Positions 11,402 through 45,109 of a DNA stretch of 50,074 nt are shown piece by piece. Source of the DNA: Chromera velia (taxonomy: Eukaryota; Sar; Chromeraceae); NCBI GenBank assembly GCA_018398765.1, contig JAHBMJ010005362.1, forward strand, positions 1 to 50,074, in the 5' to 3' direction. Every line of letters begins with the position of its first letter. Positions within the stretch are counted from its first letter, which is position 1. Below the pieces are notes generated by a model, which saw nothing but the letters and a program-made list of their open reading frames with translations, was not told the origin of the DNA and did not search any database. Both the position numbers and the translations under genes were made by a program.

Positions 11402-13520
11402 TTCTCATCCTTCTGATAGATGAAAGACTGAGAGAATGGACCATGTTGGACAACCGACAGCTGGGGTTTTGGAAAAGGATAGGGACTAGGGAGGCTATCG
11501 CTGCTCTAGCGGGATTTATAGCGAGCTTGAAAGCCTGGAAATGCCCCCTTTTGGCTACTTTTATCGATTTTTCAAAGACTTTTGACAAGGTCCCTCGGGG
11601 TCTGTTGTTGAGACGGCTTTGGGAAGAGGGGGTGTCGGAATATGACGGCTTGATGATATATGCCATGTATATCGATGTCTGGGCAAGAGTTGATAGAGCA
11701 GATAGGGAGATACCGGAGGGGGTGGGGGTAAAGCAGGGCGATCCTCTCTCTTTTCTGCTTTTTCTTTTGTTCCGGAGGGGGTGGGGGTAAAACAGGGCGA
11801 TCCTCTCTCTTTTTTGCTTTTCTTTTTGTTCATAAATAACCTGTACCGCTACGTTAGCTCCTCGGCTGACCAAGAGAATGGACACGGGGGGGAAGAGTCA
11901 GAGGAGGATGGAATAGTGAATGCTGAGAGCCCAATAGAAAGCCGAATACGAGATAACCCTTGGGCAGGTAGATTGACTCTAATTGAGAGGGGCAAGCAGT
12001 GAAAAAGCGAATGAGAAGATCAAAGTGGGGGAGAAGAGAAAAAGAGGGAAAGATTGGGTTAGTCAGGATGATACGATTGGTTTGGAGTCTCAGCCTCTCA
12101 AACGTATCGATTACGCTGATGATCTTATTTTGTTTGATCGTTTTTCATGGGAGCTTCAATCAAAAATGAATAAATTGGGTGAATACTGTCGGACATGGGG
12201 CCTCACGGTCAATCTAAAAAGAACTAAAGTGATGAGGCTTTCTAATAATGAAGAGAACATTCGGGAGCTGATCTTCTTTGAGGGAAAGGAAGGAGAGAGA
12301 ACTGATCAGTACAAATATTTAGGCTGCACTTTCTTTGAAGGCGGCTCTCTCTGTCCCTCTGTGAGACATTGGCTGGGGGCGGGGGGGCTCATAGGGCTCT
12401 GTGCTTCCCTTGGTCGTCTCTTCTCTGCCTCCAAAATTATGCTTTTTCGGGGTTTATGGATTCTTGTGCCCCTTTACGGGCTTGAAACGTTTTCTCTCAG
12501 TTAAGCAGACTGTGCTGCAGGCTGCAGACATAAAGGCGCTAAACGATCTGCAATTACGTTTTGTTAGATAGGTTTTCGGCCTCCCCTACAATTCGTTTCG
12601 TGTCCTCTCCCTTTTCATCTCTGGCCTTTGCCCGATATGGGCTCTCTTGACAGAAAGAGTGGGGGGATTTTTACGCAGCCTCTCCTTAACATCCCACTGT
12701 ATACCAGCCGGATTTTTAGATCTTTGCAACGATGACTTTTACGGAGAATGGTAAAGGTCTGTCAAGCTGTTGGTGGGACCTTTTGCTCCTGAATTCTTCT
12801 CTCATACGGAGGTACACTCGGGCCCGGGTGAAAAAGCAGCAATGAAAAGAAAGCTTGCTGTCGAAAGGAGAGGTAGGGAAGCACAAGAACGCAATGCCAT
12901 AAGAATGGTTGGATGACTGGTTTGTTGCAACCTCCCGTTCTCTGCAGAAAGAGCACCGGTAGGGTAGGGGAGGGCAGGCAGGACGGGGGAGTGTTTTCTT
13001 CAATGGAGTGAGGCCTTCGGTCTTCCAAATTGAACATCCGTCTAGACAGCGCTTGGCCCGTCTTATCATAGGAGGATGGACCGGCTCAAGCGGGCAGCGA
13101 GTTCCTATGGTTTGACCTCTCCCTAGGAGGCTGCTCTGTTTGGAGGCCAACGTTAGGCCGATTGCCCGTGCACTGCTGGGGGGGGGGAAGAGTTTTGAAC
13201 GAGGAAGTAGAGTCTGTCTGCAAGCACTGCCCCCTTGACATGCATGGATGGAGTAAATTGAATGATGTTGTTCACAAGTTAACAGAATGCAAAGGGATGG
13301 AAATAGAAAGAAGACATATGGATAGGCTTTTAAAGAAAGTAAGAGACGCACGCTCTGAGTCGGACTTGATCGTGTGGGCATAACAGATGGCAAAGCAACA
13401 GTTAGGACGGGGGGTGTGCGAGAACGAAAAGAAAGTAAAAGAAATTTTCACACTACTTCTCAAGAAATACTCTGTTGCCAGTGCACGGGCAATTTCAGCT
13501 TACCTTCATAAACGGTAAAG
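11402..13520 (+). mobile_element. LINE copy A, 5'-truncated
   Basis: Begins abruptly within the RT domain, at the position equivalent to about 43392 of copy B. It follows copy B to the end of ORF2 with many substitutions and indels. 5' truncation is typical of target-primed LINE insertion. Its 3' end is near the final stop at about 13517. Motifs of the same family as copy B: DFSKTFDKVPRG and DYADDLILF. Confidence 0.9.
11443..13518 (+). pseudogene. LINE reverse transcriptase, C-terminal half (copy A)
   Basis: RT motif A is FIDFSKTFDKVPRG at about 11560. YADD lies at 12112-12123, followed by GLTVNLKRTKVMRLS. A C-terminal cysteine-histidine motif (CKHCPLDMHG..LNDVVHKLTEC) lies at about 13221-13292, and the tail runs to KR-stop near 13517. 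A 59-bp tandem duplication (11713-11771 and 11772-11830) shifts the frame. Further frameshifts follow near 11990, 12500 and 12890, and a stop at 13381. Unlike copy B, copy A keeps the catalytic Asp of motif A. It is dead through frame damage. Confidence 0.88.
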
Positions 13521-15617: not shown

Positions 15618-15871
15618 GAAAAGTTTGGTAAAGGCTGTAGAGATACAGTTGAGTGTAAGCCTTGAAACTCTTGTATCAAATCTCCCTGAAACGAGAGAGT
15701 TCTCGTCAGAAAATAACAGCCATCTCCGCCGAGTGTATCTTTCCCTCTTCGTTGCTGAAACGCCATCATGATATCCTGTAGAATATTGGCTGGCCCTCTT
15801 AGTGGCTCCGATCTCCCCTCTGGCAACGGGAGGGCCACGCTTCCTGAAATAAAAACCAATAGACAGCTTCT

Positions 15872-17069
15872 TAGAGGGAGTACTTCGACGGCAGATTTGA
15901 CATCATTGTAAAAAGAATTGATAACCTTGATAACCGGATTGGTCAGAATGAGAGAAGGCTTGAGAAATGTGAGAAGTCAATTGAGAAGATCGAATCAACT
16001 GTGCTGAGTCTTCAGCCCTCCGATGAGGAGAAAGACCCCGTCCCTCGCTCACGTATGGTGCTGGGCCTCTCTCTCAATGAGACAAAGAAGTGGCAGCAAT
16101 TCCAATCCTTCCTCAGAGACTTGCTCACCTTTTCTCTCTCCCTCAATGACTAAGTGTGCCAGACAGATGAAGTGATCTCCCATTCTTTCCGGCTGTACAA
16201 CGCTGCGAAATCCATCTTCTGTAGCAAGAACTACAAGTGGGTCTCCAAACTCACTGTCGAATTCAAACGCAAAAAAGATGCGGAAGAGTTTGACGGTCTG
16301 TTCAAGGCCCACGCCTCTGACTGCTCCGTGCAGTACAACGTCCTCTCCCTTGCTCCCACCGGATTTGTTAAGTGTATGCTCAGAAAGATGGAGAAAGAAG
16401 AGAAAGCTCAGCCTGGCAGAATTTTCTGGGTGCAAAGCACACTTGGCGATGCCGGGGCATCCGCTAAGGACAAAGAGAGGGCTCAGGCCCTTCTGCGGAA
16501 GGAAGGGGTGAGTGAATCCGCTCAACCGATTCCCAGGGCACCTGCACCGCCACTGCAGCAGCACCCATTCCCCCCTATGCCGCCCCAATAAAATTCGGCC
16601 GCCGACTCTCACATGATGGGTTCGCCACTGGCAGCCGCGGTCGCGCAGCAGAATGCGGTGGCAGCTACGGTGCCGCAAACCTCGAGCGCTGCTGTATTAA
16701 ACTTTGCAATGCACGCCTAACAGTAACAATAGCAAGCCAGACAGCTCCCGCAGCCGTCTCATGAGGGTGGTATGGTTTTTTAAGACCCCGGTGCAAGTGA
16801 GACCCGAGTTGAGAAACGGAGATGGGGGTGCTGCCCCCGGCTTCGGTCATTAATTTCGGATGGACACGGGAAGAGTTGGGGAGAAGGGCGTATGGTTGGG
16901 AGTCTTCCTTCCCCCTCCGAACCGACTGGACTCCCACGGCTGAAAAGGAAATTGTTAGGTCTCCTGGAAGAGAGGGAGGCTCTCAGAAAGGAGATGTATG
17001 ATTTGCGTGCCTGGTTGTCTTCTGTCTCTGTCAATAAGTTGTGTTCTCCCTCAGGCACATGTCTTTCTT
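15872..17069 (+). pseudogene. LINE C ORF1: coiled-coil RNA-binding-type protein
   Basis: One frame from just after a TAG at about 15871 reads FDIIVKRIDNLDNRIGQNER.. followed by LEKCEKSIEKIES.., which is heptad-patterned and predicts a coiled coil. VLGLSLNETKKWQQF.. and, after a TAA at about 16151, a folded-looking segment ([20 protein letters not shown].., [14 protein letters not shown]) follow, as expected of an RRM-like ORF1 core. More stops lie at 16589 and about 16710-16790. Then LKRKLLGLLEEREALRKEMY adds a second helical segment near 16960. Product would coat LINE RNA and assist target-primed reverse transcription. The RRM assignment is inference. Confidence 0.65.
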
Positions 17070-20000
17070 GATTCATTGAAATGGTGTGACGTGAAATTCA
17101 ATCTATGTAGAAAAGGGTACTCGGCCCCTGTCTCTCCCCCTCCCTCTGCCTTTCATGGTAATCGTTTTGATGTTCTGTCGGAGTGCACAACGGACGAAGG
17201 ATCTGTGAGCGGCGGCGAGCTTGATGCCCTTGCAGGCAAGTCAAACTGTTCTTCTCCTCTATTTAATTCTTCTCCGTCCCTTCATGCCCCTGATGTTGAT
17301 TCTCTCTCCTGTTCCCCTTCACTTTGCAGTCAGGCACCTTCTCCTTCCGGTGAGGGCTTGTCTGTTCTGTCTTTTGTATCTGATGTGTTTTTTATTTCGA
17401 AGGAGAAGTCGGTTAGGAAGCGTCGCAGGGGGAAAGGGAAAAAGCGTGGGGGAGGCAACCGTAAGCATGGCACGTTACAGTAGCCAAGTGAAGCGGAGGA
17501 GCCTGCCAGCCCAGAGCCAGAGTGGGAGATCGTGCGGGTGCTTCGTACTCGCACAAACGGGGAAGGGGGGGAAAGGGAATACCTGGTTGACTGGGGCGGG
17601 AATTTCTTTCACACGTGGGAGCCGGCAGCAAACCTGAATCACTGCGAAGAGCTGCGAAGGGAGTTTTGGAAAGAGTGGCGGAAAGAAAAAGAGAAAGAGA
17701 TGGCAGCCGCGGCTAGAGTGAGGGATGCCTCGGTCTGCTTTTCATTGTTGAATGTGAATGGGGTGAGAAGTAAAGAAAACAACGGTTCCCTTTCCCGTTG
17801 GCTGGCCGAGAAAGATCCCAACCTAACCATCTTCACAGAGGCAATGGACGTAACGAGGGACATCTCTTGTGGGGGGTGGAAAGGTAAAAACTTCAGCCAC
17901 CGTGAGTGGTACCGGCAGCAACTAGGTATACGCAGAGCAGCCCATGATAGGGACGGCAGGAGTGGAGGTGTTTGTATGCTTGCAAAAAAAGAACGGTGGA
18001 GCGAGCTAAAACCCAAAATCTCCCTTATGGGCCCGAGTCTAGTTGAAGTGAAGATTACAATGGGTGGGCGCAGGGTGCATATATTCGGTCTTTACCTTCC
18101 TAGGTCCTGGTCCGATCACAGGGACAGTAGGGTCCCTGACCTCTTAAAAGATCATGTATTTGGGGGAGTCCCTCTTGAGGCACACAGGGTGGTGATGGGG
18201 GATTTCAATGCACACTCAGGCAACCTCGTCCCCGAAAATCTTTTGTGGTCCCGTGCAGATCTCCTCCTCCCACCGAAGGATTCTGGGGGGGTTGATGGGA
18301 GGGGAGAAAATGATGAAGGCTCGGAGGAGCCTAACCAACCCTCGTTCGTCCGCACGTCTCAGTGCAGTAAAGACGTTGACCGCAGTGGGAGGGACTTTAT
18401 TTAAATTTGTAGTGATACGAATCTTATTCCTTTGAATGGACTGATAGAAGAAGCAGGGGGAGAGTCCTTTATTTTTTCTGGTGAGTGTACCCACTATTCC
18501 AGACAGAGCAGCATGTCTACGCCCACTTCCCTCATTAATTACGTACTTACTGATCTATTTACCACACAGAGGGTTTCTAATTGGGAGGTTGACTTTGATG
18601 GTATTGCCTCCCCCGACCATACGACCGTTTCCTTCTCTTTCTCCCCTCCCTTGGCCCAACTCGAATCCGAAGATGCTCTCTTACCCCACCAAAACCTCTT
18701 TGATTGTCCTCCTTTTTTCTGTTCAAACCGCACAGCCCCGGTCTCTGATGAAGAAATCGCGCCGCTTGTAGCAGCGGTGAGATCGTTTACTGAGGATCAA
18801 TAGCCTGGCTTGTGGGCCTATCATGAGCAGATTGAACCATTTGAGGAGCCGCCTGCTCCTCCACCTCCCCCCGTGTCCCCGTATCCCCGACGAGGGCTGA
18901 CTTCGGAGGGCGGTGACGATCGTACGTGTCTGCACAGGTTAGTTGAGGAATGGTCGCATATACTAGTAGGGCCGATCAAGCAGACAGGGGACAAGGGGCC
19001 TGGCCCAGAAGGTAGACGATCAAAGAAAGAGGCATGGTTTGATTTGGAATGTAAAGCTTTACAGAAAGAGGTTGGAGAGGCAGACGGGAGATGAAAGCTA
19101 GTGAGAGATGGGAATAGAAGGGGAATAGAGTTCGATAGACTGCAGAGGCTTCTCTAAGTCCGTTGTACTCTGTTCAAAAGAAAGAGAGTTACGTGGGAGA
19201 GAGCACAAGCCCGGAGGGTACAAGAAGAGTTGTTAAAAGACCCGCTTGCTATCTGGAAGAGAAAGAAAAAAGCTGCCTCAGCTGGGGGAGCCTCCCGTCC
19301 TTCTCCACGTGAGTTCTCAAATCATTGGGCGGGGGTGTTTGACGACAAGAATGAAGAGCCTCTCCCTTCCGCCCTCCCACCTGCCCCTCCTCTTTTCCAC
19401 CGTTCTATTTCGCCCTTCTCTTTCCATCAAATCTCCTCTGCTCTAAAGAAAATGAATAGAAAGAAAGCCTCCGGCCTTAAAGGAATCTCCCCTGCTCAGC
19501 TTGACCTTTGTTTTGCACACTCGGCGCTCTCTCGTTTTTTACTTTTTGTTTTGTTTAATTGTATGCATATTTTTGTATGCTGGCCTCCCTCCTGGAATGT
19601 ACTGCATATCTGCCTTGTCCCTAAAGGCCCTGCCTCTCCCTCTCTCAATGAATGGAGGCCTATTCACATTGTTAACCCTTTCGCAAAACTTTTTGGTTTG
19701 CTGATGGATGGCCGTGTGCGCTCTCAAGTTGAGCTTGACGTCAGGCAGTTAGGTTTCAGACAAGGGGTGGGAACGAGAGAAGAGGTAGGCGTGCTTGTCT
19801 CTGCCATTCTCTCCTCTAAAAAGAAAAAGAAAGCTCTGCTGGCAGGCTTTGTTGATTTCTCCAAAGCCTTCGACACTGTGCCGAGAGGTAAGCTAATTCA
19901 GAAACTGAGAAGAGAAGGTATATGTGAGGCAGATGTGTGTATGATATGTGAAATGTACAGGGAGGTCTGGGGAAAGGTGGATGGGGACTCTTTGCGTTTT

Positions 20001-21593
20001 CGGGAGGGCGCTGGGGTAAAGCAAGGTGATGCTCTCTCTCCTATTCTCTTTTTTATCTATATCAATGAACTTCCCCGTGTGTGTTCAGTTAGTAAGAACG
20101 AGGGGGCCTTAGACAGAGAAGCAGAGGAAGTAGGATGGTCAGATAAGAGAATGGGGGAGGGCAGCGTTGAGGAGCCCAAGAGAGAGCCCAAACCTGTCCT
20201 CCCTGACAACTGCATCTTAGGCAGTCTGGGATACTATGCGGATGATCTCTATTTCCTTGTTCATTCTGTCTCAGATTTGCAAAAGAAGTTCTCAGCCTTG
20301 GAAGGGCATTGCATGGAATGGGGACTGACTGTGAACTTAAAGAAAACAAAAATCTTGCGCCTGTCTGCCTTGGCTCTGGGACAGTCTGCAGGGAGAGTCA
20401 TGTATGGTGGGAGGGAAGTTGAATGGACATCCGAATACAAATATCTGGGGTATGTTTTCTTTGAAGGGGGGTGCTTAAACAAGACAATTGAGTCCCGTAT
20501 TGCTTCTGCTTCGCGGGCTCTGAGAGGGGTAATTGGGTTGATTGCGAGCATGGGCCTGCTCAGCATTGATGCGCAGGTAACAGTTTTTAGAGCCTGCTGG
20601 ACCCCTATAGCACTCTACTGCCTTGAATGTCTGCTAGTGCGGGATGCAGACCTGCTCGCTTTTGATGCTTTGCAGCTTTGGTTTGCCCGTTGGTGTGGTC
20701 ATTTGTCTGCTTGCAGCCTCCGCCTGCGCTCTCTTTGCATCCTTGGTCTTCTTCCCTGGAAAGCCCTTCTCTGCTTCCGCGTAGCTGACTGGTAGCATTC
20801 TCTTTCCATCATAACACACACTATTCCTGCAGCCATGTTGCGTGCCTGGAAGAATAACTGCTGCCAACAATTCACAAGGTCTATAGACAGGCTGCTTTGT
20901 TGGGCTGATTTGATTTCTGTCCGCTCACTGAGGGTCGAGCCCGATCTGTCTTCCCAATGCGGGCAGAATGGTCATAGGACATAAGACACTGGCTCACTTT
21001 TCTTCAAGGGCAAGGTGAGACAGACAGTTGCAAAGGAATGCATGAGGGCTTCTAAGGATGATGGGCAACCTTCTTCTCACTTTCTCCTCCTTGCTAGACT
21101 CACCCCTCTGCAGCGGGACTTCCCATCCTCCCGCCGTATGTTTGTCTTCCTCCTGTGCAGCAAGTCGTCCTCCGGTGTTCCTTCCATCTTTGCCCTTCCC
21201 CGTTCTGCCCTGTCGGTTACGAATGGCTCGATCTTTTCTTTTTTGCGCATGCTGACATACAACCCGATGGGCGGGCAAGGTGGGCTGCCTGTTGGTTGCT
21301 CTGATAGAAAGCTGTGCATCTATGAAGCCTGCTGCCGGTGTGTAGATGATTTTATTCATCAGCTCTCTGTCTGCCCCCGATGGATTGCCGAACAAGGCTT
21401 TTAATTTGCACTGAAATTTGCAGTGGTTGGCATTAATTCAATCAGACCGCTTCACTCGTTATGACTCACCCTGGGGCCTTTGCATCCGCCTCCTTTTCTG
21501 ATCTGGGGGTTCACAAATTCATCACATCGCTCTTGCGTTCTCAACCCTCTCTCCTCTTTATGATTTCTCGTCATATTGTAGTAAATGATTGAT
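17070..21593 (+). pseudogene. LINE C ORF2: chromodomain - AP endonuclease - RT - CCHC
   Basis: A single frame from about 16998 to 21404 holds stops at 17481 (TAG), 18402 (TAA), 18801 (TAG), 19092 (TGA), about 19155 (TAA), 20793 (TAG) and about 20982 (TAA). In order: Ser-rich linker; chromodomain (17517-17680); endonuclease (LLNVNGVRSK, IFTEA, GGVCML, VVMGDFNAH, INYVLTD, SPDHTTVSF) at about 17730-18640; proline-rich linker; RT (19230-20795) with GFVDFSKAFDTVPRG, EGAGVKQGDALSPILF and YYADD at 20235-20246; and a cysteine-histidine tail (CCRCVDDFIHQLSVC, about 21328-21375). A final frameshift leads to the family tail LGVHKFITSLLRSQP. All RT catalytic residues are present. Only the stops and tail shift disable it. 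Confidence 0.88.
17517..17680 (+). other. Chromodomain in LINE C ORF2
   Basis: Reads EWEIVRVLRTR, then EREYLVDWGGNFFHTWEPA, then NLNHCEELRREFWKEW. This is the chromodomain layout: a beta strand with an acidic-aromatic start, Y-L-V-x-W-x-G, T-W-E-P, and a C-terminal helix beginning with EEL. The positions of the HP1-type aromatic cage are occupied by Trp (EWE), Trp (DWG) and Phe (NFF). It lies about 15 residues before the endonuclease start. In chromoviruses such a domain guides integration to methylated histone H3; a similar role here is inference. The stop at 17481 lies upstream of it. Confidence 0.82.
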
Positions 21594-21639
21594 TAGATTA
21601 AGTTCGAATAACTGTCGTCCACTTAGCCTGCAGCTGGCA

Positions 21640-21800
21640 TAACTACATAGTACGGTTAGGAGTAACGATAGTACGATGGTTACCAGGCGGCCACTAGGCC
21701 GCCCGGGTTACCCATTTCACGGTTATGGTAGTAGTTTGTAGTACCATGACCATGGTAGTGGTAGTATTGCATATTTTTCCTAATACTAGTGAACTTTAAA
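21640..21800 (+). repeat. Dispersed GGTAAC/ACCATGGTAG-rich repeat
   Basis: Shares GGCATAACTA..AGTACGGTTAGGAGT and ACCATGGTAGTGGTAG with 26560-26712, which is in the opposite orientation for the first block. Many internal short palindromes (ACCATGGT, GGCGGCC..GGCCGCC). Probably a foldback repeat family. Confidence 0.6.
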
Positions 21801-22278
21801 CCTGTTTTATCTAGTTTTACCATCAAATGTACAATCAACAGAGGCTACAGAGTAAACACCATTGTTACATCAATGTTGCTAAACTCTTAGATCTGAGATA
21901 ATAATCATAATATCAGAGATATTACTCTATCAGTATAAATGATAACATTATGTCATAATTATGATGCTGTAGTTCCATGTCAATTGTTCAACTGTGCAAT
22001 GAAACATATCATGAATGCGAGCTCACTTAGTGAGGCCTGCCAGTGACATACTGATTGATTGATTGATCCAGCGGACTCCAACGAAAATGCGACCTTGGAG
22101 GGTGACTAGGGGGGAGGTGTGTCGCTGCCTCTCCACCGAGACTTTGGCCGGTCAACCCTAAATGAATGCGTGGTTTGCCTCTTCCAGCCGGGGGGGAAAC
22201 ACAGAACAAAAAAAAGAAGAACGAAGAGAGGAACAAAAGAAAAAAGATTGTTTCTCTTCATGTATATGTGTATGTATA

Positions 22279-22309
<31 letters not shown>

Positions 22310-22567
22310 ATGTACGTGTGTATGTGTGTATATGCGTGTGTGTGTATGTGAGTGACAGAGAGCGAGGATGGTCGTCAACCCGGCCCTCATAGGCATACAC
22401 AAACAAAGACAAAATCAAGATGTGAGCAAAGGAGAATAAGGCCTGGACGTGTGGACGGAAGGCTCCCTTCCAGTCAGCTTAAGCAAGGGGAATACAGATA
22501 GAGACTGACGAAGCTGAGAGAGTCTCTTTTCGTGTGTTTGTATGTGTGTGTATGTATGTGTGTGTGT
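21801..22567. repeat. AT-rich spacer and TG/TATG microsatellites
   Basis: 21801-22020 is AT-rich without a gene. A (GATT)n tract lies near 22052-22067. Poly-A/GAA tract 22206-22245, then (TG)n with TATG interruptions at 22259-22352 and again at 22531-22570. ORFs crossing these are artefacts of the repeat. Confidence 0.85.
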
Positions 22568-22842
22568 GTAACATAATCAGTAGTCTCGGTAACGGAGCTC
22601 ATATTCCAAGGCATAAAAGTAACGATACGAAGAAGGAGTGAACGGTTGGCTTGTTCTAGAAACGTTCATCCTAATCTAGATGCCATGAACACAAGCCGTC
22701 CTGAAGCTATATCGATTGGAGTGGCTACGGGCACGCGCGCTTCCGCTCGGTCCCGCAAAGCAGGCTCAAGCGTTCTCTCAACGCCACCAACCGGCCCACG
22801 CCAACACTTAGAGGCGGCGCGGCTACAAGCATTCACGTCACA
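22568..22842 (+). repeat. 275-bp dispersed repeat, copy 1
   Basis: Nearly identical to 25588-25863 in direct orientation, starting GTAACATAATCAGTAGTCT and ending GCATTCACGTCAC. A TG microsatellite abuts its start, and a TG microsatellite abuts the end of copy 2. The start word TAGTCTAGCGGT (copy 2) resembles a pol III A box, but I find no good B box. Confidence 0.85.
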
Positions 22843-23500
22843 CATGCCCATCCTCCTAAGGCGTATGTCCACACACGATCTCAGATCTTGTACTCAATTT
22901 CAATCGCTTCATTTCTCCTTGATGCTCTTTCCTTTCTCCCTCGCATCAGATTCGAATCACACAAGAAATCGGTATGCAACGACCGACACGGGTTGTTGGA
23001 CACTGTCACAAGCGTGTGCGTGGAGTGCCAACCATTCATCTTGAACATCGCTGCCTCAAATAAACGAGAACGGGATAACGGCGCGTGCAAGCGATCAGTC
23101 ACCATAAGAAGCTTCACGAATCTGTCACTGCATATGAGCTCATATAAAGATCGCCCCACAGCCAGTCATACACTTTCACTCATCATCCATCCACTCACTC
23201 TGCAAACAATAAATGATGACACCACAGGCACTCAAGAGGCGGTGTCTGCGCAGTGGAGCTCTCCTCCTGCAAAGTGGTTCTGGTTCGGCATGCATCAGGG
23301 AGAAAACACCAGAAACATTTTCACAGTCGGAAAAGACAAAGAGATCCTGCGAATGCATATGTCAACTCGCTTCAGAGAGGAGGTACACAAGAATACATAG
23401 AGAGATCAAATGTGTATGAGAAGATAAGAATCAAGAGACAGAGAAAAGAATCTGTATCGAGATGCATTAAAAGAAAAATAAAGAGAGATAGAAAAACATG
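22843..23500. other. Possible coding segment, strand unresolved
   Basis: The plus frame 22888-23400 ends with a natural-looking stretch (AVSAQWSSPPAKWFWFGMHQ.., IFTVGKDKEILRMHM) before a TAG at 23398. The minus frame 23159-22881 (FVKLLMVTDRLHAPLSRSRL..) is equally open. Neither has a recognised domain. One of them may be an exon; I cannot decide which. Confidence 0.3.
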
Positions 23501-23532
23501 AGAGGAAGTGTCCTCGAGTCGTTCCATTCAGC

Positions 23533-23866
23533 GTCAGTGTGTCAGTGCGTCAATCAGTGTGTCAGTGCGTCAATCAGTGTATACCTCTCCCTCCTCACGG
23601 GAGAAGTGCGTTAGCAACTTCTCAAGCTGTTGTCTGTATTTCCTTTTCTTTCTTTCTCTTTCCACCTTTCCCTTGTTTTCATTCTTTCTTGTTCCACCTT
23701 TCGTTCGCTAAGCCTTTCATTTCTTCTTCTTCTTCCCTTCATTCTCTTTCTTTCATTCATTCATTCATTCAATCATTCTTTCATTCACTCTTTCCTTCTT
23801 TTCTTTCTTTCCTTCTTTCTTTCTTTCCTTTCTTTTTTTCTTTCTTTCTTTCTTTTTCTAAGCAGC
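23533..23866. repeat. 20-bp tandem repeat and pyrimidine tract
   Basis: Two and a half copies of CAGTGTGTCAGTGCGTCAAT at about 23533-23580, then a CTTT/TTCATT-rich pyrimidine tract at 23640-23866. ORFs of Ser/Phe-rich residues here are repeat artefacts. 23940-24200 is also pyrimidine-rich, without a gene. Confidence 0.85.
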
Positions 23867-24240
23867 AAGGCGCAAGGAAGTCAAGGAAAAGGGTGAGGAA
23901 GCGAAGACGGACGGGGACAAGGTTAGAGACAAGACAAAGATAAAAACATTCATTCTTTCCTTCTCCATTCCATCCTTTCAGTCTTTCTTCATCTCTTCAA
24001 TCCCTCTTCCATTCTCCTATCTCTCCTTCTCACCTTCATTCTTTCTGCTTCCTCTAATCCATTCTTTCTCGTTCTCTCCTGCACCGACAGATACTGCCAC
24101 ACCAACCACCATCCCCCTCTCTCACAAACGATTGTCCTCAATTGTAAGGAGAGCTCGACTGGTCACAAAGCATTCAGTCATTGACTAAAGCAATAGACTC
24201 ATGAATGTTTTTGGGGTAGGACGGGTGGGTAGCAACGTGG

Positions 24241-25553
24241 ATGCAGTCGGTCAGTCGTCTTTTGTTCATTCGGATGCACCCCTACATCCCCACTCTCCCG
24301 TTCGTTCTCTCATCATCTCTTCTCAATCCAGTGCACTTTCATCTACTTCCGACACTCATGATGTCGGCAATGTGCACTCATCTATTCGATTTCTTTTCGT
24401 CCTTCTACTCTTCTTCATCCATTCTCTCCTACCGGGCGCCCTCACACAAAGTGAGTACTGAGGATTTCCAGGCGCTCTCGCTGACTGTCATTTCCCCGTC
24501 TCCTCCTTTTTCATTTTATGAAAACGGAAACACAGGGACAATGCGCACATACAGTCAGTTGACTTGTTTTCTTCTTGTCTGGGGTCCTGTCCGGGCGACC
24601 AGGTGTTCTCACACCCTGCCGTCTCCTCTTCCTTCGTCGCTCTTCACGGCATGCCACCTGCCTCCACGGGAGGCAGCCCAACCTCACAAGAGTCTACACG
24701 AAAGGAATCAGAAAGACGCAGACTCGTTTCTTCATGCACAGGTCGGCACGACCGGAAGTGCGGTCCATGCTCTGTCTGCCCGTTTCCTCAGTTACTCCTT
24801 GTTCTATCGTGCCCTGCCCTCTCTGGAGTCTACAGCAAGCAGCTCCTTCTCCCGATTTGCGCAGGTCCCTACACAATATGACAAGATGACTGAGAGAAGC
24901 ACGCACAGAAACACTTCCTCTGCACTCCGATCTCATGCGGGCTTTCCATCGATCTGCCGTATCGAGTCCTCACCATCAGACTGACAACAGTCCGAATTGA
25001 TAACAGCGTCTCACCCTTTTCGGACTCACTGTTTCTCTTTTCCTTCCTTCGCTCTCGATTCACAGAGTCACCTGCCTCCCTCTCCTTCCGTTTCTGTGGA
25101 AGCAATCTTCAGAGAGGGGACCAGAGAGAGGTTTTCCATCAGCACGCTCGATCTGCCATCAACGAGGCCTTCGTTCAGTCTCATCTTCCTGAGGTTTGCG
25201 TCTCAGGGAACACTAAATCTTCCGAGGCCGACAGAACCTCACACACAGCCTCGGCAGAGAGCCAATCAGCACGGTGTTTTCCTCTTCCTCTGTGCTTCTA
25301 TCGCAACAATCCACATACATCAGTGGTCTGGCTTCATCTGGTTCTACCCTTCCTCAAAAAAAAATTCTCTCTCTGTAGATCACCATTCACGGTCTCTTTC
25401 CACAGGCAGTCACATTCTCTTCAAGCACAACACTTTCTCTCGTGCGGCTTGCAAAGGAAGGACCAGATCAATCTATCAGACCAACTGTTCTATGGAAGCA
25501 CCACACTCAGTTTGAACAGGGAGAAATCTGTGACTCTGTCTGCCTTGGATTGA
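24241..25553 (+). CDS. Candidate spliced gene, unresolved exons
   Basis: Two long plus-strand frames (24241-24984; 24997-25515) are open. A third frame from an acceptor-like CGATTCACAG at about 25056-25065 reads a natural-looking segment (HQHARSAINEAFVQSHLPEV.., SLQAQHFLSCGLQRKDQINL..) to a TGA at 25551-25553. Another acceptor-like GATTTGCGCAG lies near 24858. I could not chain the exons in phase. No domain recognised. The proteins are Ser/His/Thr-rich. A cDNA would settle whether this is a gene or a relic. Confidence 0.3.
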
Positions 25554-25587
25554 GCCGTCTGTTTGAACAAAGCTCTGCTATCCACCT

Positions 25588-25863
25588 GTAACATAATCAG
25601 TAGTCTAGCGGTAACGGAGCTCATATTCCAAGGCATAAAAGTAACGACACGAAGAAGGAGTGAACGGTTGGCTTGTTCTAGAAACGTTTATCCTAATCTG
25701 GATGCCATGAACACAAGCCGTCCTGAAGCTATATCGATTGGAGTGGCTACGGGCACGCGCGCTTCCGCTCGGTCCCGCAAGGCAGGCTCAAGCGTTCTCT
25801 CAACGCCACCGACCGGCCCACGCCAACGCTTAGAGGCGGCGCGGCTACGAGCATTCACGTCAC
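25588..25863 (+). repeat. 275-bp dispersed repeat, copy 2
   Basis: Copy of 22568-22842 with about a dozen substitutions, mostly transitions, and a 2-bp difference at TAGTCT(AG)CGGTAAC. Followed directly by (TG)n. Confidence 0.85.
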
Positions 25864-25918
25864 AGTGTGTGTGTGTGTGCGTGTGTGTGTGTGTATGTGT
25901 GTATGTGTGTGTATGTGT

Positions 25919-25963
<45 letters not shown>

Positions 25964-26114
25964 TGTATGTATATATGTATGTGTGTATGTGTGTGTGCAT
26001 GTGTGTGTGTATGTATGTCTTGTTTGGACTTCCGTCTATTTCTGTGCTTCAGTGGGAATCCGTGCGCATTTGTTTCCCTATTGAGCAATTCGCCCGAAAG
26101 TGGAGGTGTGTGTC

Positions 26115-26147
<33 letters not shown>

Positions 26148-26159
26148 GTATGTATCACC

Positions 26160-26191
<32 letters not shown>

Positions 26192-26200
26192 AAGAGAACA
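25864..26200. repeat. TG, TA and GA microsatellites
   Basis: (TG)n with TATG slips at 25864-26018. A unique piece 26019-26105. Then (TG)n, (TA)n and (GA)n at 26106-26192. No gene. Confidence 0.95.
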
Positions 26201-27036
26201 ACCTACTTCGCCTCAAACGCCCCTGCAGCTTAAACTTCACTGCACTGCGTCTCACGACAAGACAAGAAACCCGAAAATTACTAGACACAGTGAACAGTAA
26301 ACCAGGAAGAAGTGGACCACTCAGTCTTGTTTCCCAGTTTCCCACATACAGTGAGAAAGCACTGATCACTGCCGAACTGCAGCCTTCGTTAATTATCCGT
26401 CTGCTCTGACAGGGGACAGAAGAGAAACAATTCCATAATTTTGACCACAAGTAAGGTTGACCTTCATTTAAAAATTGATTTTCGAAAGTTGAAACGGATT
26501 TGAAGGAGACGGATTTTTTTTTAATCCATGCGTCGCGTTTTTTTTGTATCCTTTGCCGGGGTCTTGGCCCGAACTACCATGGTAGTGGTAGGCGCCCTTG
26601 GGCTCCCAAGTTACCGCCCCATGGTTACCAAAGTGACGGTAACTCGCCGCCTCCCCAAGGGGCCCGGTAGTAACTCCTAACCGTACTGTGTAGGCATAAC
26701 TAAACAGACCCATGCATGTATGCGCCGCCCGGGAGTTCTAACTCCACCTAGGGTTTGGCATCAATCAATCAATCATCATCATCAGTGCTAGAACTCTAGT
26801 GAATTAAAAAAAAAGAAATAAATAACTATATAAATTTATATAACATTTAACTATAAATGTTATATATATCTAAAAATAAACAACAAAAGTATATGATCAA
26901 TGTAGAACTGCATGCGGGGGTGGATGATTTACGCATATGCATTTGATTAATTGCAAGTTTTGCGGACAAGTGTGACAAGATACGGGCTGCAGACTGGATA
27001 GAGTTCTCCTTCGGATTTAAGCTGCCTTTTCTCGCT
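26201..27036. other. Intergenic with inverted dispersed repeat
   Basis: 26560-26712 is the opposite-orientation relative of 21640-21800 (ACCATGGTAGTGGTAG; GTTAGGAGT as its complement). 26755-26785 has (ATC) repeats, and 26805-26880 is AT-rich. No convincing ORF. Confidence 0.6.
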
Positions 27037-36137: not shown

Positions 36138-38971
<2,834 letters not shown>

Positions 38972-39595
38972 CCGGTCTCATCTTCTTCTTCCTCCTCCTC
39001 CTCTGCCGGGGTGAACGTGGGGGAGTCGGGAAAGGGATTTGGGGGGGAGGTTTAGGTGGGGGACAGAAGATAGTTTTGGTAGGCAGAGACCTCCCTCCTC
39101 CCTCTCTTCTCTCCTTCTCTCAGACAGCCGGTCAGACAGTCAGTCGTAGAAATTTCAAAGGGGTTAGGGCAGGCTTCAGGCAGGCAGACACACAAATAGT
39201 AATTGATAGACTTCCCCCCTCACCTCCTTGTTCTCACCCCCCTGCTGTGAAGGATGGATTCCTTTCTTGTGATGAGGTGGAGGCCCTCATACAAGTGACT
39301 GTGCATGAGCGACCCTTCACCCTGGTTAAGAGGGGGGGTGAGAAATTAGGGAATGTAAGGAACTTTTCGCCCTCTCTCCCTCCCCGATCTGAGAATTAAA
39401 AAAGAGCGCTTTCTTTCATACTTTGCTCCTTTTGCATCTGATGATGACTGCATCTTATATCTTCCTTCTTCCTGTAGTCAGGAGAGTGCAGGAGAGTGCC
39501 ACGGCCGGAGGGACAGGGGGCAAAGAAGAATGTATAACAGAAGGAAGAGGACCGTCATTGAATCTTCCGATCCACAGAAGCGCTCTTTTTCCCCC

Positions 39596-39760
39596 CGACC
39601 TCCTCCTCCTCCTCCTCCTTCCTCTCTCTCTTCTTCTCGCTTTTCTTCTTCTTCTTCTTCTTTATCTGCTTCTTCTTCTTCTTCTTCTTCTTCTTCTTCT
39701 TCTTCTTTTTCGTCTTCTTTTTCTCCTTCTTCTTCTTCTTCTGCTTTGTTCTTCTTTTCC
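39596..39760 (+). repeat. (TTC/TCT)n tract encoding poly-Ser
   Basis: Trinucleotide pyrimidine repeat that is in frame with ORF2 of LINE B as Ser-rich sequence. Shorter similar tracts follow at 39855-39975, 40220-40255 and 40360-40460. The Lys/Glu-rich minus-strand ORFs here are artefacts. Confidence 0.9.
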
Positions 39761-40942
39761 CCCTCCCCCGGCTCTGGTGTAGGCAAGAACAAGGGTGAAA
39801 ACGGACAAGGAGGGGTGGGGGGGGTGAGACCAGACCACCGAGAGTATCCCTCGTCTTCTTTCTCTTTCTCTTTTTCTCCATTTTCTTCTTCTTCTCCTTC
39901 CCTTTCCTCTTCTTCTTCTTATCCTTCTCCTCCCATTCCTTCCGCATCAGATTCTCCTTCTTCTACTTTTTTCCTTTCTTTCCCCCCCTCCAGTACTGGT
40001 GTGAGGGTATCCGCCTATGACAGGGCTGGGAGGGAGGGACGGGTAACGCCTGTGACACGGCAGCCCGGACCCTCCCCCCACCCGATTCGATTCGATTCTT
40101 TCTCAGGACCTTGCAGGTGTTGTGCCGGAGGGGAGGGGGGCCTCCGGGTCGGACCCTCCCCTCACCCAATTCGAACCGTCTCGATCGATCGACCGACTGA
40201 TTCTCTCCCCCGTGCGTTTTCTTCTTCTTCTCATTCTTCATCTTCCTCTCCTCTTCCTATTTATAAATCGATGAATGTCCCTCCTGTTCGCGTTTAAACA
40301 GAGGAGGGGTGCGTTGGGGGTGTCCGGGAGGGTGGGGGTATGGGTCGGGCTTTTTTTCCCTCTTCTTCTTCCTCTCCTCTTTTTTCTCCTCTTGATCTGT
40401 CTTTCCCTTCCCCACCCCTCCCGTCTTTTTCTTCTTCTTCTTCTCCTATTTTCTCATCATCTCTTCCCTCTCTCCCTTTGCCTCCTCTTCCCCCTCCTAC
40501 CCCAGAAACGCACGTGCAAGATACAGTTGAGCCTGAGTGTCGGGAAGCCCAGGTCATCTCCCCATGGGAGGTGCCTTTGCTTGCTGCTCCACCATCGTCC
40601 CCACGCTCTGCTTCTCCTGCCCCCCCCTCATGCCTTCACTACAGCTCTCCCATGGTTGGGGAAGCTGGGATCAGAGGGGCTCTCGGTGTTCCTGAGACCT
40701 CTCCCCGAGACATTCTTGAGAAATGCAGGAGAAATGCTGACAAAAAGATTGTTAGAAGACTCAGAGAGAGGGAGGGACTACGGAGAGGGCTTTGGGGGAG
40801 AAGAAAAAAAAACTGCTCTATATGTGGAGGCGCTCTGAGAGGAGGCAGATGCCCTGACTTCCTCTACAGTACCAAGGAGGAGGTGCAGGCAGAGGAGGAG
40901 GAGTCTTTCCCCTTGCCGGGGGAGGGCGGGGGGCTAATCACT

Positions 40943-41065
40943 CGTATCGTGAATGTGAGGGGGGGGAAGGGAAAGAGGAGGGAATATGAAGTAGTTAAGA
41001 CTGGGTGGGATAGAACGTTCTGGGTAGGGGCAGCTGCTGTTCCTCCCTTCCTTCGGACATCTTTT
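40943..41065 (+). other. Chromo-like module in LINE B ORF2
   Basis: Reads RIVNVRGGKGKRREYEVVKT followed by GWDRTFWVGAAAVPPFL. It aligns with the LINE C chromodomain (REYLVDWGG..TWEPAANL) at the same place relative to the endonuclease. Y-x-V and the second Trp position are kept, but TWEP has become FWVG and the VDW Trp is not in register. It is divergent, and the cage may not be functional. A TAG follows at 41066. Confidence 0.6.
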
Positions 41066-42814
41066 TAGGTTGAGAAAAGACGTAAGAGAGACAACCTTCC
41101 ACCTCCCTCGTCCCCCTCCCCCTCCACCCCCCCTCCTTCCCTTTCTCCTTCCGCTGACCTCTCTCCCTCTCCTTTTATTTCCCCATCTGCCCTTTCCCTT
41201 CCTTCCCTCCCTCCATCTCCCGATTTTGTTTCTGATGCTCCGTGTCCCTCGCCCTCTTCTCAATCAGTATGTAGCATGGCCTCTGGAGAATTGTATGAAT
41301 CTTTTGTTAATCATAGTGACAAGAAGAAAGGGAGGGGGGGCGGTTTTACCATAAGTGCGCTCAACATGGGACCCTTAGAAACGAAGTTGGGGGGCGGTTC
41401 TCTCGAGAGCTGGCTGTCAGGTGTAGATATCGCCATGATTCCCAAGACGTGCATGCCTACAGAAAAAGTTCGCACGGCCTTCCACTCGGGGGAGAATTTC
41501 TCCCATATAGAATAGAAAAGAAGAAAAATGGGGGTTCACTCTAGAGCTGCCAAACGGGATGTACGAACAAGGGGTATGTGCATCCTTGTCAGGAATTCGT
41601 TAATTCCTGTTCTCCATCCGACCTGGGAACTAGTGGGGCCCGACCTGGTCAAACTGATGGTCAAGGTGTAAGAGAAGAAAAGGGGGGGGGGGGGGAAAGA
41701 TAGTTCACGTACCCGAACGCTGCACGTCTTTGGTGTGTATCTTCTGCATGCCAATTCGGACCATAAAGGTTCTAGAGAACGGGTAAATAAAGAGAAGGAA
41801 GAATTGTTGGAGGCATTATACACTGTCCCTTGTCAGATCTGCGAATAGTGATGGGGGACCTGAATGCACACCTGGCTAGTGAGTGCCCAAAAGGGGTCAC
41901 GTGGGAAAGGGAAATAGATACTGAAACCGGGACGGGGCATGAAGGGAATAAGAATGCAGATGGACACTCACTGGAATTCACGCGTAAGTCTCTATGTTCA
42001 AATCTTGACGAAGCAAGTCGTTGGATCCTTCACTCGCTTTGCGAGAAGTCCAATTTCCTGCCAGCCGCCGGTTTGTACCTAAAGGATGAAAGAAGGGAGG
42101 TGGAGGTCAGACTGACCGGGGCATGGACCTTTAAGAGTGGGAAGTCTAAGTCGGTAATTGACATTCCTTTGATTGACCCTCTGCTTCTTTGTTATCTCTC
42201 TTCTTACGTGGTCGAGTCACGTTCAGAGGTTGCAAAGCAGCATGCGGCTGTCTCCCTTTCTCTTGACTTCTCTTCTCCTCCCTCTTTGTCTATGTATGAA
42301 TGTATTTCTGACTCATCCCTCTCCCGGCCTCTCTCTTATCTGAGTGAAGTAGGCAGATGTACCCCCTGTTTGCGACGATGAGTTGATGGGGGTGGCCCTC
42401 TCTCTGAAAGCGTTCATAGAGAATGGGGGGCTAGACTTATGGGATGAGGGTTTACATCAAGCGCAGGAGTGGGGAGACGTTGTTCCTCACTTCTTCGATC
42501 CCCCAAAACCTCTGCCCGAGCCGCCCCCATCAGATGCAGTGTCTTTCTCTCTGACAGAGCAGTTACGACAGATTTCTGACTCCTGGCAGACATGCCTAGC
42601 CAGTGGGAATTCCGAAGGGGTAGGGATGGGAAGCAGAAAGGAAAACAAGAAAGAAAGAAAGGACATAAGTCAATGGGAGTCGTCCCGGTCAGACTGGTGC
42701 GATGAGGAATGTTCGGCTAAATAAAGGGAGGTAAGAGAGGCCGAGAGAGAATGAAAGGACCTGAGAGGAATATGGGGGGCAGATGAAGGTGACCGGGGAG
42801 GTCCTACCCAGAGT

Positions 42815-45109
42815 GTGAAGCGAAAGCTTGAGTCCCTTCACAAAACAAGGAAGAGACTGTTTGCTCGTAAAGAAACTGAACACGCTAACAGACAAGCAGA
42901 GAGGTTAGCAAGGGAGGCTGCGACCGACCCCTCGGCAATTTGGAGGTGGAAGAAGGAAACGAGCAGTGCGAGAGGTGGGGGAGACAGACCGACCCCCGCG
43001 GCTTTTACCAATTTCTGGGCCTCTGTATTTGAGGGTGAAGGGCTCCCTCCTCCTCCAGTTGCTTCCCCTGCTTTCTCTCTCTCTTCCCCCCCTCCTCTCC
43101 CAGCCTTCTCTTATAAAAGGATTATCGGTGCACTCCGATCGATCGATACGAGTAAGGCTGATGGAATTGGGGGCGTTTCCCCCAGGCATCTTGACCTTTG
43201 TTTCAGCTCCTCTCCCCTTTCTCGTTTCCTTCTTTTTGTCCTCTTTAATTTATTTTATCGTTATTCCTATTGGCCGTCTCTGTGGAATTTGATCCGTGTA
43301 GTTCCTGTTCCGAAAGGCCTCCCCTCTCCTGACTGCTCGGAATGGAGACCTATCCATATTGTGTGTTTGCTTGCAAAACTGTTTGCCCTCTTGACGGACG
43401 AGAGATTGAGGGAACAGACCTCATTAGACAACCACCAGCTGGGGTTCAGGAAGGGGGTTGGGACCAGGGAGGCCATTGTGGCGCTGGCGGGACTCGTAGC
43501 GAGCTCCAAAGCCCGGAAACTCCCCCTTCTGGCTGCGTTCATTAACTTTTCTAAGGCGTTTGATAAGGTTCCTCGAGGTCTGTTGCTGAGACGGCTTCGG
43601 GAGGAGGGTGTGTCGGAATATGATGTTTTAATGGTGCATGCTATATACTTTGATGTCTGGGCGAGGGTCGATGGTGCTGATGGGGAGATACAGGAAGGGG
43701 CGGGGGTGAAACAGGGTGACTCTCTCTCTCCCCTGCTCTTCCTTCTGTTCATTAATAATCTGCACCGCCACATCCGCCTCTCAGCTCACCGAGAGGATGA
43801 GCTCGGGGGGGAAGAGTCAGAGAAGGATGGAACAGTGTCTGACGAGAGGTCTATAGAAAGCAGAGCACGTGACTACCCTTGGGCAGGCAGATTGAGAGGG
43901 GTTAGCATTGGGAAGGGGAATAAGAAGACCGAAGTAGCGGTGAAGAAGAAAAAAGGGAAAGTCAGGGTCAGTCAGGACGATACGATCTATGTTGGGCCGG
44001 AGCCTATCAAAAGCCTTGGTTATGCTGACGACCTTGTTCTGTTTGGTCATTCTTTGCATGAGCTTCAAGCGAGAATAGATAAATTGGCGGAATATTGTCG
44101 GATGTGGGGCTTCACGGTCAATTTGAAAAAGATAAAAGTAATGAGGCTTTCCTGCAGCAAGGAGAATATTAGTCAGCCAATCTTTTTTGAAGGGAAGGAA
44201 GTCGAGAGAACGGGCCAGTATAAATATTTAGGCTGCACCTTTTTTGAAGGCGGATCTCTCCGTTCCTCTGTGAGACATCGCCTAGGGGTGGCAGAGAGGG
44301 CACTCGGGGGGGTCATTAGGCTCTGTGTTTCTCTTGGTCGTCTCTCCTCGACTTCGAAAATTATGCTCTTTCGGGGCCTGTGGTTTCCTGTGGCCCTTTA
44401 CGGGCTAGAAACGTTTTTCCTCAGTCAGGCAGACATGAAAGCGTTGGATGATTTGCAACTACGTTTTATTAGATGGGTTTTCGGCCTTCCTCACAATTCG
44501 TTTCGTGTCCCCTCCCTCTTCATCTCCGGCCTTTGCCCAATACGGGCTATCTTGACTGAAAGAGTAGGGGGTTTTTTACGTAGCCTCTCCTTAACATCCT
44601 ACTGTGTGCCCGCTGGCTTTTTAGATCTCTGCAAAGACGGCCTTTATGGCGATTGGTGGAGGTCCGTCAAGCTGTTGGTGGGACCTTTCACTCCTGAACT
44701 CTTCTCTGTCGAGGGGGTGCCTTCGGGCCTGGGAGAGAAAGCTGCATTAAAAAGAAAGCTCGCAGTAGAAGGGAGAGGTAGGGAAGCACAAGAATGGTTG
44801 GACAACTGGTTTGTAGCTACTTCCCGTTCTTTGCAAAAAGAGGGCCGGCAGGGCAGGGGAGGGCAGGCAGGACGGGGGGGGGTTTTCCCTAACGGAGTGA
44901 GGCCTTCGGTCTTCCAAGTCGAAAATCCGTCTAGACAGCGCTTGGCCCATCTTATCATAGGAGGATGGACCGGCTCAAGCGGGCGGCGTGTTCCTATGGT
45001 TCGACCTCTCCCTAGGAGGCTGCTCTGTTCGAAGGCCAACGTCAGGCCGATTACCCATGCACTGTTAGNNNNNNGGGGGGGGGGGGGGGAGTTCCAAACG
45101 GGGAGGTAG
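42815..45109 (+). CDS. LINE B reverse transcriptase frame, catalytic Asp replaced
   Basis: 764 codons open, including the N run. Thumb/finger motifs: NHQLGFRKGVGTREAI, motif A AAFINFSKAFDKVPRG (about 43530-43580), motif B AGVKQGDSLSPLLF, motif C YADD at 44021-44032, GFTVNLKKIKVMRLS. Motif A normally has DFSKAFD; here the first Asp is Asn (codon AAC), so the polymerase should be inactive although the frame is intact. Copies A and C keep Asp. A charged insertion of roughly 90 residues lies between motifs B and C. It would have performed target-primed reverse transcription in the nucleus. Confidence 0.85.
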   Translation: MKRKLESLHKTRKRLFARKETEHANRQAERLAREAATDPSAIWRWKKETSSARGGGDRPTPAAFTNFWASVFEGEGLPPPPVASPAFSLSSPPPLPAFSYKRIIGALRSIDTSKADGIGGVSPRHLDLCFSSSPLSRFLLFVLFNLFYRYSYWPSLWNLIRVVPVPKGLPSPDCSEWRPIHIVCLLAKLFALLTDERLREQTSLDNHQLGFRKGVGTREAIVALAGLVASSKARKLPLLAAFINFSKAFDKVPRGLLLRRLREEGVSEYDVLMVHAIYFDVWARVDGADGEIQEGAGVKQGDSLSPLLFLLFINNLHRHIRLSAHREDELGGEESEKDGTVSDERSIESRARDYPWAGRLRGVSIGKGNKKTEVAVKKKKGKVRVSQDDTIYVGPEPIKSLGYADDLVLFGHSLHELQARIDKLAEYCRMWGFTVNLKKIKVMRLSCSKENISQPIFFEGKEVERTGQYKYLGCTFFEGGSLRSSVRHRLGVAERALGGVIRLCVSLGRLSSTSKIMLFRGLWFPVALYGLETFFLSQADMKALDDLQLRFIRWVFGLPHNSFRVPSLFISGLCPIRAILTERVGGFLRSLSLTSYCVPAGFLDLCKDGLYGDWWRSVKLLVGPFTPELFSVEGVPSGLGEKAALKRKLAVEGRGREAQEWLDNWFVATSRSLQKEGRQGRGGQAGRGGVFPNGVRPSVFQVENPSRQRLAHLIIGGWTGSSGRRVPMVRPLPRRLLCSKANVRPITHALLXXXGGGGEFQTGR
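45069..45090. other. Assembly gap with G homopolymer
   Basis: Six N followed by about 15 G. Copy A has a shorter G run at the same place (about 13180-13189). The gap is most likely a sequencing failure at poly-G, so the frameshift of ORF2 here may be artificial. Confidence 0.9.

Follow-up and report, generated by a model that had tools for sequence, protein, structure and literature searches.

A chromodomain directly N-terminal to the AP endonuclease in a multi-copy LINE family of Chromera velia

Chromera velia is an alveolate, and the window analyzed here, the whole 50,074-nucleotide stretch taken from its contig JAHBMJ010005362.1, carries on the forward strand a copy of a LINE that we place in family A. 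The copy extends from near its 5' end to an inserted DNA transposon (15650..21642), as delimited by blastn against other copies at 86-92% identity. This comparison drew on 13 loci with 5' regions, whose alignments start between 15650 and 15796 of the window (that of L049 through a second alignment), and on 14 loci with 3' regions; the 3' locus L063 was unmatched. The 3' tail of this copy, which ends in (TCAA)n, lies displaced at 26694..26779 (forward strand; 96% identity to L047, 92% to L048). A (TCAA)n-type tail is present in 13 of the 14 3' loci, 5' ends are spread over about 150 bases and insertion flanks differ among the other copies. Target-site duplications were sought in 10 copies and none was convincing; one of the 10 has 24 bases common to both flanks, away from the junctions. 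The transposon that displaces the tail is about 5 kb long (21643-26693) and is inserted in the LINE 3' end, with 21-bp inverted ends (CTACAyAGTACGGTTAGGAGT) and an apparent 6-bp duplication, GCATAA. Pfam searches for a transposase in three of its open reading frames gave no match.

All coding remains of the LINE are on the forward strand. ORF1 survives at 15875..16588 with a stop at 16151, its N-terminal part coiled-coil-like by eye; the ORF1 of the L047 copy gave nothing over the Pfam cut-offs. The N-terminal part of ORF2 (16784..17483) is divided between two frames in the window copy and includes a basic stretch, RKRRRGKGKKRGGGNRKHG, at 17415-17471. It is followed by the chromodomain with its C-terminal helix (17520..17684) and by an AP (exonuclease III-like) endonuclease (17745..18629) with the motifs LLNVNG, IFTEAMD, FGLYLPRSW, GDFNAH and SPDH, the last past the stop at 18402; we assume for these the catalytic roles of LINE-1 and APE1. 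The reverse transcriptase (RT) at 19623..20456 matches Pfam RVT_1 (PF00078) with 88.5 bits over residues 156-433 of the stretch 19158-20792, in the chromodomain frame past four in-frame stops, and has FVDFSKAFD at 19848, VKQGD at 20016 and YADD at 20235. Near the C-terminus, a CxxC...H...C motif that is presumably zinc-finger-like can be read at 21330..21383. Because of five in-frame stops (17481, 18402, 18801, 19092 and 19155) and a frame change between about 17040 and 17068, the window copy is dead.

The original prediction named chromodomain peptides in the ORF2 frame shortly before LLNVNGVRSK of the endonuclease, and both their content and their place are right. EWEIVRVLRTR...WRK reads at 17520-17684 on the forward strand, in the same frame as the LLNVNG that begins at 17745, and a 306-codon open stretch (17484-18401) holds the chromodomain together with the start of the AP endonuclease. 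Within this stretch, Pfam Chromo (PF00385) scores 29.0 bits over residues 14-63 (17523-17672), so that the segment proposed as a chromodomain, 17517-17680, exceeds the curated cut-off of 25.1 bits. Exo_endo_phos (PF03372) scores 30.5 bits over residues 89-248 (17748-18227), with a cut-off of 24.5 bits. Against PDB chains, phmmer matches the chromodomain part to CDYL (2dnt, E 6.3e-6) and CBX5/HP1 (2rvl, E 6.9e-6) and the endonuclease part, weakly, to the LINE-1 endonuclease (E 0.05). The chromodomain match is beyond chance because of these Pfam and phmmer scores. AP endonuclease and RT belong to one ORF2, in a single frame with stops in the window copy and unbroken in the single ORF2 of L039, a member of the related family C. 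The element is an APE-type LINE, and its ORF2 protein has a chromodomain directly N-terminal to the endonuclease.

This arrangement recurs across the genome. A light-harvesting protein encoded in the same genome matches one from C. velia CCMP2878 at 98% identity along all 211 residues. The excerpted text of the C. velia genome paper gives about 30 Mb of transposable elements and describes no LINE domains. We searched 178 Mb in 4040 contigs with a 306-residue query, and at least 17 family-A copies besides that of the window cover module and endonuclease at 84-89% identity (129 of 513 candidates scored); at 17 of the 18 loci L009-L026, a single tblastn alignment runs through both. Between one and four stops interrupt the module-endonuclease stretch in 16 of the 17 other A copies. 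A 64-residue module query gave at least 84 matches (150 of 206 candidates scored), among them at least 23 family-A modules, the window counted, and at least 13 modules of a second family, B, at 51-63% identity; the remainder comprises two host-like genes, 44 weaker matches (E 9e-4 to 9e-3) and a pair of short partial ones. The A and B modules sit in broken copies nearly throughout, and no whole unbroken copy of either family was seen. Four A copies without a full module (L027, L028, L030 and L032) are truncated or rearranged. The claim had concerned one LINE: the fusion holds in family A, and what falls away is its confinement there, as B has it too and D and C have it in diverged form.

Comparison of six A with five B copies indicates how the module has been kept. 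Its pN is 0.220, close to the 0.229 of the endonuclease, and the non-domain stretches before, between and after give 0.334, 0.404 and 0.284; since pS (0.50 to 0.98) is mostly saturated, only the comparison between regions is meaningful. Amino-acid identity between A and B is 62.7% (95% range 51-74) in the chromodomain and 61.1% in the endonuclease, and the identity excess over non-domain columns was matched in 28 of 5000 permutations. The proposed chromodomain on a LINE endonuclease is thus held under constraint in a multi-copy family, and constraint equal to that of the endonuclease makes it seem that the module was selected as part of a working ORF2 protein.

These observations bear on whether the chromodomain might lie outside the ORF2 protein, brought there by a chance join or by misassembly with a gypsy element, or sitting in a stretch that is never translated. 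The methionine at 17700, after the module, and the window-copy stop at 17481, just before it, would suit such a reading. Against it, the join recurs in 17 A copies besides that of the window, in family B and in C and D frames that are open, the module is under constraint and its sequence groups away from gypsy chromodomains; we regard this reading as very improbable. An odd single copy and an assembly artefact are both ruled out by the many copies, 17 further A copies and B, with the identical join.

Chromodomains of the HP1 type hold methyl-lysine in a cage of three aromatic residues, Y24, W45 and Y48 in HP1 (as quoted in PMC3350952). By analogy with HP1, the candidate cage residues of the window copy are W at 17523-17525, W at 17592-17594 and F at 17604-17606 (forward strand). 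The first is W in all 20 A modules. The second is W in 18 of the 20, a stop being read there by eye in the other two, and F stands four residues beyond it (W+4) in all 19 pattern-matched A modules and, by eye, in the twentieth. The two W of A and B are in register with the cage aromatics of HP1 and CDYL; the loop for the third cage residue lacks two residues in A and B, and the third position is deleted in the alignment. The short loop recurs in family B and in the two host-like genes, where the W+4 place is taken by F or W. With the loop shortened in this way, it is a guess that F at W+4 substitutes for the third cage residue. In one subfamily of C (VLGHKRLHGGERWFEIRRSPDSGLEW) and in D, the cage residues are gone.

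In Ty3/gypsy chromoviruses, a chromodomain at the C-terminus of the integrase guides the element to H3K9me chromatin. As a source of the LINE module, the integrase link raised with the original prediction is not likely. The nearest chromodomains are those of the two host-like genes, L083 (C1119; 49% identity, 38.2 bits) and L084 (C884; 47%, 37.2 bits), which have the VDWGPx(F/W) short loop in common with the LINE module. Chromo is the sole Pfam match in each, at 29.3 bits in L083 (528 of the 638 residues of the open frame scanned) and 21.5 bits, below the cut-off, in L084. Known integrase chromodomains of the same genome score 26.9 bits (L008, C454) and 24.1 bits (L085, C3994) with the LINE module, and the other 42 weaker matches score at most 27.3 bits (150 of 206 candidates scored). 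Profile scores with the LINE module are 82 for host-like and 58 for gypsy chromodomains. A chromodomain tree of seven of the 20 A modules, five of the six B modules fetched, two host, eight gypsy and three PDB rows splits LINE and host from gypsy and PDB with support of 97/96, with the warning that long branches may meet. Integrase_H2C2 lies beside the chromodomain in six of the eight gypsy rows, and none was found in the scanned piece of L005 or L006. By sequence, the closest kin of the A/B module are the two host-like genes rather than the integrase chromodomains found elsewhere in the genome; a gypsy integrase is disfavored in score, loop length and tree, and L083 and L084 are likely relatives of the module donor. 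Chromodomain matches are numerous in the genome as a whole (150 of 554 candidates scored; L001-L006, L008 and L085 scanned).

Such kinship with host genes would also suit a chromodomain that acts after or instead of targeting, by retention of the element's protein or its copies in heterochromatin or by competition with chromodomain silencing factors of the host, and the decay of the A copies makes silencing pressure plausible. In 16 A copies (that of the window and 15 loci among L010-L029), 1870 of 2354 counted changes (79%) are C-to-T or G-to-A, most strongly at CpG (9.8%) and CpA (about 8%) on both strands. The pattern agrees with the frequent stops at W and Q codons, and it resembles repeat-induced mutation or dense cytosine methylation. 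The same changes, however, make up 165 of 190 (87%) in eight copies of family C2 (L040-L044, L046, L098 and L099). Because C2 decays likewise, the decay is not peculiar to A and B with their canonical chromodomain. The fixed position of the module beside the nicking enzyme suggests, moreover, a role at the target, and we give an action after or instead of targeting only a small chance.

Related endonucleases define three further families, C at about 40% identity and D and E at about 35-40%; L088 and L093 are not assignable to a family. In C, a module lies directly N-terminal to the endonuclease. In D (L086, L089 and L090), it is further upstream, with a serine-rich linker after it. No chromo module was seen in E (the upstream region of L091 and L092, L087 being largely masked), where the upstream region has a cysteine cluster or a serine-rich stretch. 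The module join lies in open frames in L039 (family C, 1658 codons) and in L086 and L089 (family D), and modules N-terminal to an endonuclease number 35 C-type matches and, with partial ones included, 79 of D type. A cysteine-rich cluster, which we take to be CXC-like, occurs in the N-terminal part of ORF2 in L039 and L040 (C) and L092 (E); in C, it precedes the chromo-like module. The cluster had no Pfam match in L039 or L040. We set aside a RAP1 match in L039 (26.8 bits, cut-off 26.3), which overlaps the serine-rich part.

Profile comparisons connect these modules unevenly. Scores are 32.1 for A/B with D, 25.8 for gypsy with D and 25.0 for D with C, none of which was reached in 200 column shuffles; A/B with C scores 15.4, as high in 11 of 200 shuffles, so that a direct match between these two is no better than shuffles. 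The host-D, host-C and gypsy-C comparisons gave nothing. Against a chromodomain profile built without D, single D modules reach E 2.4e-6 at best; of the 23, nine fall below 1e-3 and 14 below 0.01. The C modules have no match. Pfam Chromo matches two of the 20 rows of alignment A2 (one A, one B, one C and 17 D), and the family C frames L039 and L040 have no Chromo match in Pfam. With fair confidence, then, the D module can be called a diverged chromodomain, and that of C appears chromo-like solely by way of D; the case for a single origin of the module across A-D comes from profile scores that span about 40 residues.

The RT phylogeny proposed for placing the element could be realized in part. 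Eight RTs from our families form one isolated group (support 100/100), whose stem measures 1.39 changes per column in a tree with 98 other RTs; these represent 98 of 99 LINE-like proteins, one being too short; the B and D1 RTs are partial. As the reference sequences are without clade names, the group is set apart from those 98 only, and placement in a named clade did not follow. With a root outside the group, the branching order is E, D, C, B, A, and the simplest reading would be that the module was gained once, before the divergence of D. We tentatively, at slightly less than even chance, envisage an isolated C. velia LINE group in which one gain of a host reader led from the canonical form in A and B to cage-less forms in D and C, with E as an outgroup lacking it.

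In the model we propose, a chromatin gene of the host gave the ancestor of families A-D its chromodomain. In A and B, the domain would read a histone tail through a cage of W, W and the displaced F, and would dock the complex of ORF2 protein and RNA on marked chromatin, most likely of the H3K9me type. The adjoining endonuclease would then nick DNA at the marked chromatin and so start target-primed reverse transcription. In C and D, the module would have kept its place before the endonuclease and lost its cage residues, passing to a new ligand or a structural part. That the domain binds a methylated histone tail and guides the endonuclease is inferred by analogy, because the chromodomain of the chromovirus MAGGY interacts with H3K9me2/3 (PMC3350952) and the Toxoplasma chromodomain protein TgChromo1 binds heterochromatin (PMC3302879). 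Profiles of Pre-SET (H3K9 methyltransferase) and of the chromo-shadow domain gave no match in the genome, and neither did their controls, so these searches carry no weight in either direction. Taken as a whole, with uptake from the host, histone-guided targeting in A and B and an altered role in C and D, we consider this explanation somewhat better than an even proposition.

One C subfamily and D, where the module remains N-terminal to the endonuclease and the cage residues are missing, raise the thought that a chromodomain-like fold does another job throughout, such as binding RNA or DNA, contacting ORF1 or supporting the endonuclease, the cage being a leftover. The unusual loop of A and B would agree with this. 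However, the A/B residues and loop length are common to the host-like genes, and the module is constrained like the endonuclease; another job is, to us, unlikely, if still a serious contender.

Histone-guided targeting in A and B would have partial parallels. CR1 and L2 LINEs with a PHD finger, for which a targeting role has been suggested, likewise combine an APE-type LINE with an epigenetic reader (PMC4120745). Their reader is a PHD finger, however, mostly in ORF1, although in L2 subgroup 5 it is probably at the start of ORF2 (PMC4120745), whereas in C. velia it is a chromodomain in ORF2 before the endonuclease, within a separate RT group. No PHD finger was matched by Pfam in the L047 ORF1 and two ORF2 pieces, in L039 or in L040 (1223 codons). 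Chromoviruses such as MAGGY, of which this genome has chromovirus-type elements (L008 and L085), similarly join a retroelement chromodomain to DNA-breaking machinery, but they are LTR elements that carry an integrase and have the chromodomain at the C-terminus, whereas A and B have an AP endonuclease, an N-terminal chromodomain and a module of another sequence group; Pfam found no integrase in the LINE pieces scanned. Protist capture of chromodomains is also on record for Chronos, an oomycete gypsy element, and CoDi-I, a diatom copia element (PMC5348765). Both are LTR retrotransposons, and the Chronos chromodomain adjoins the integrase at the C-terminus (PMC5348765), unlike that of A and B, which precedes the endonuclease. 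HP1/CBX and CDYL are similar to A and B over the whole domain, with two of three cage aromatics in register; the A/B domain differs in its shorter loop and in its fusion to a retroelement enzyme.

Searches of proteins with a family-C query gave 4 + 96 LINE-like matches at 35% identity or less (best 8000 candidates scored in each). PF00385 is listed for none of the 100, and a local profile found no chromodomain in the 99 scanned (best E 0.3); this rarity holds within the 99 proteins found, in databases whose coverage of eukaryotic elements may be partial. The original prediction knew of no described LINE clade with this domain order, and we likewise found no chromodomain LINE in the openly licensed PMC literature, among the matches listed. 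In what was found, a chromodomain in a LINE is new; a PHD reader in LINEs and chromodomains in LTR elements were already known.

How most LINEs choose their target sites is largely open, and in the literature found, guidance by a chromodomain is described for integrase-bearing LTR elements. If the proposed model is true, target-primed reverse transcription would be steerable by a histone mark, and both great groups of retrotransposons would have acquired chromodomains. The series A-E, in one genome, makes histone-mark targeting testable by insertion maps alone.

The window itself holds two further LINEs of the group. One, of the family D type, spans 38114-45109 and has a chromo-like module (40928-41065), a cysteine motif, a Ser-rich stretch, endonuclease remains and an RT. 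The other is an RT fragment at 11983-12501, with an RVT_1 score of 28.9 bits, just below the cut-off of 29.6.
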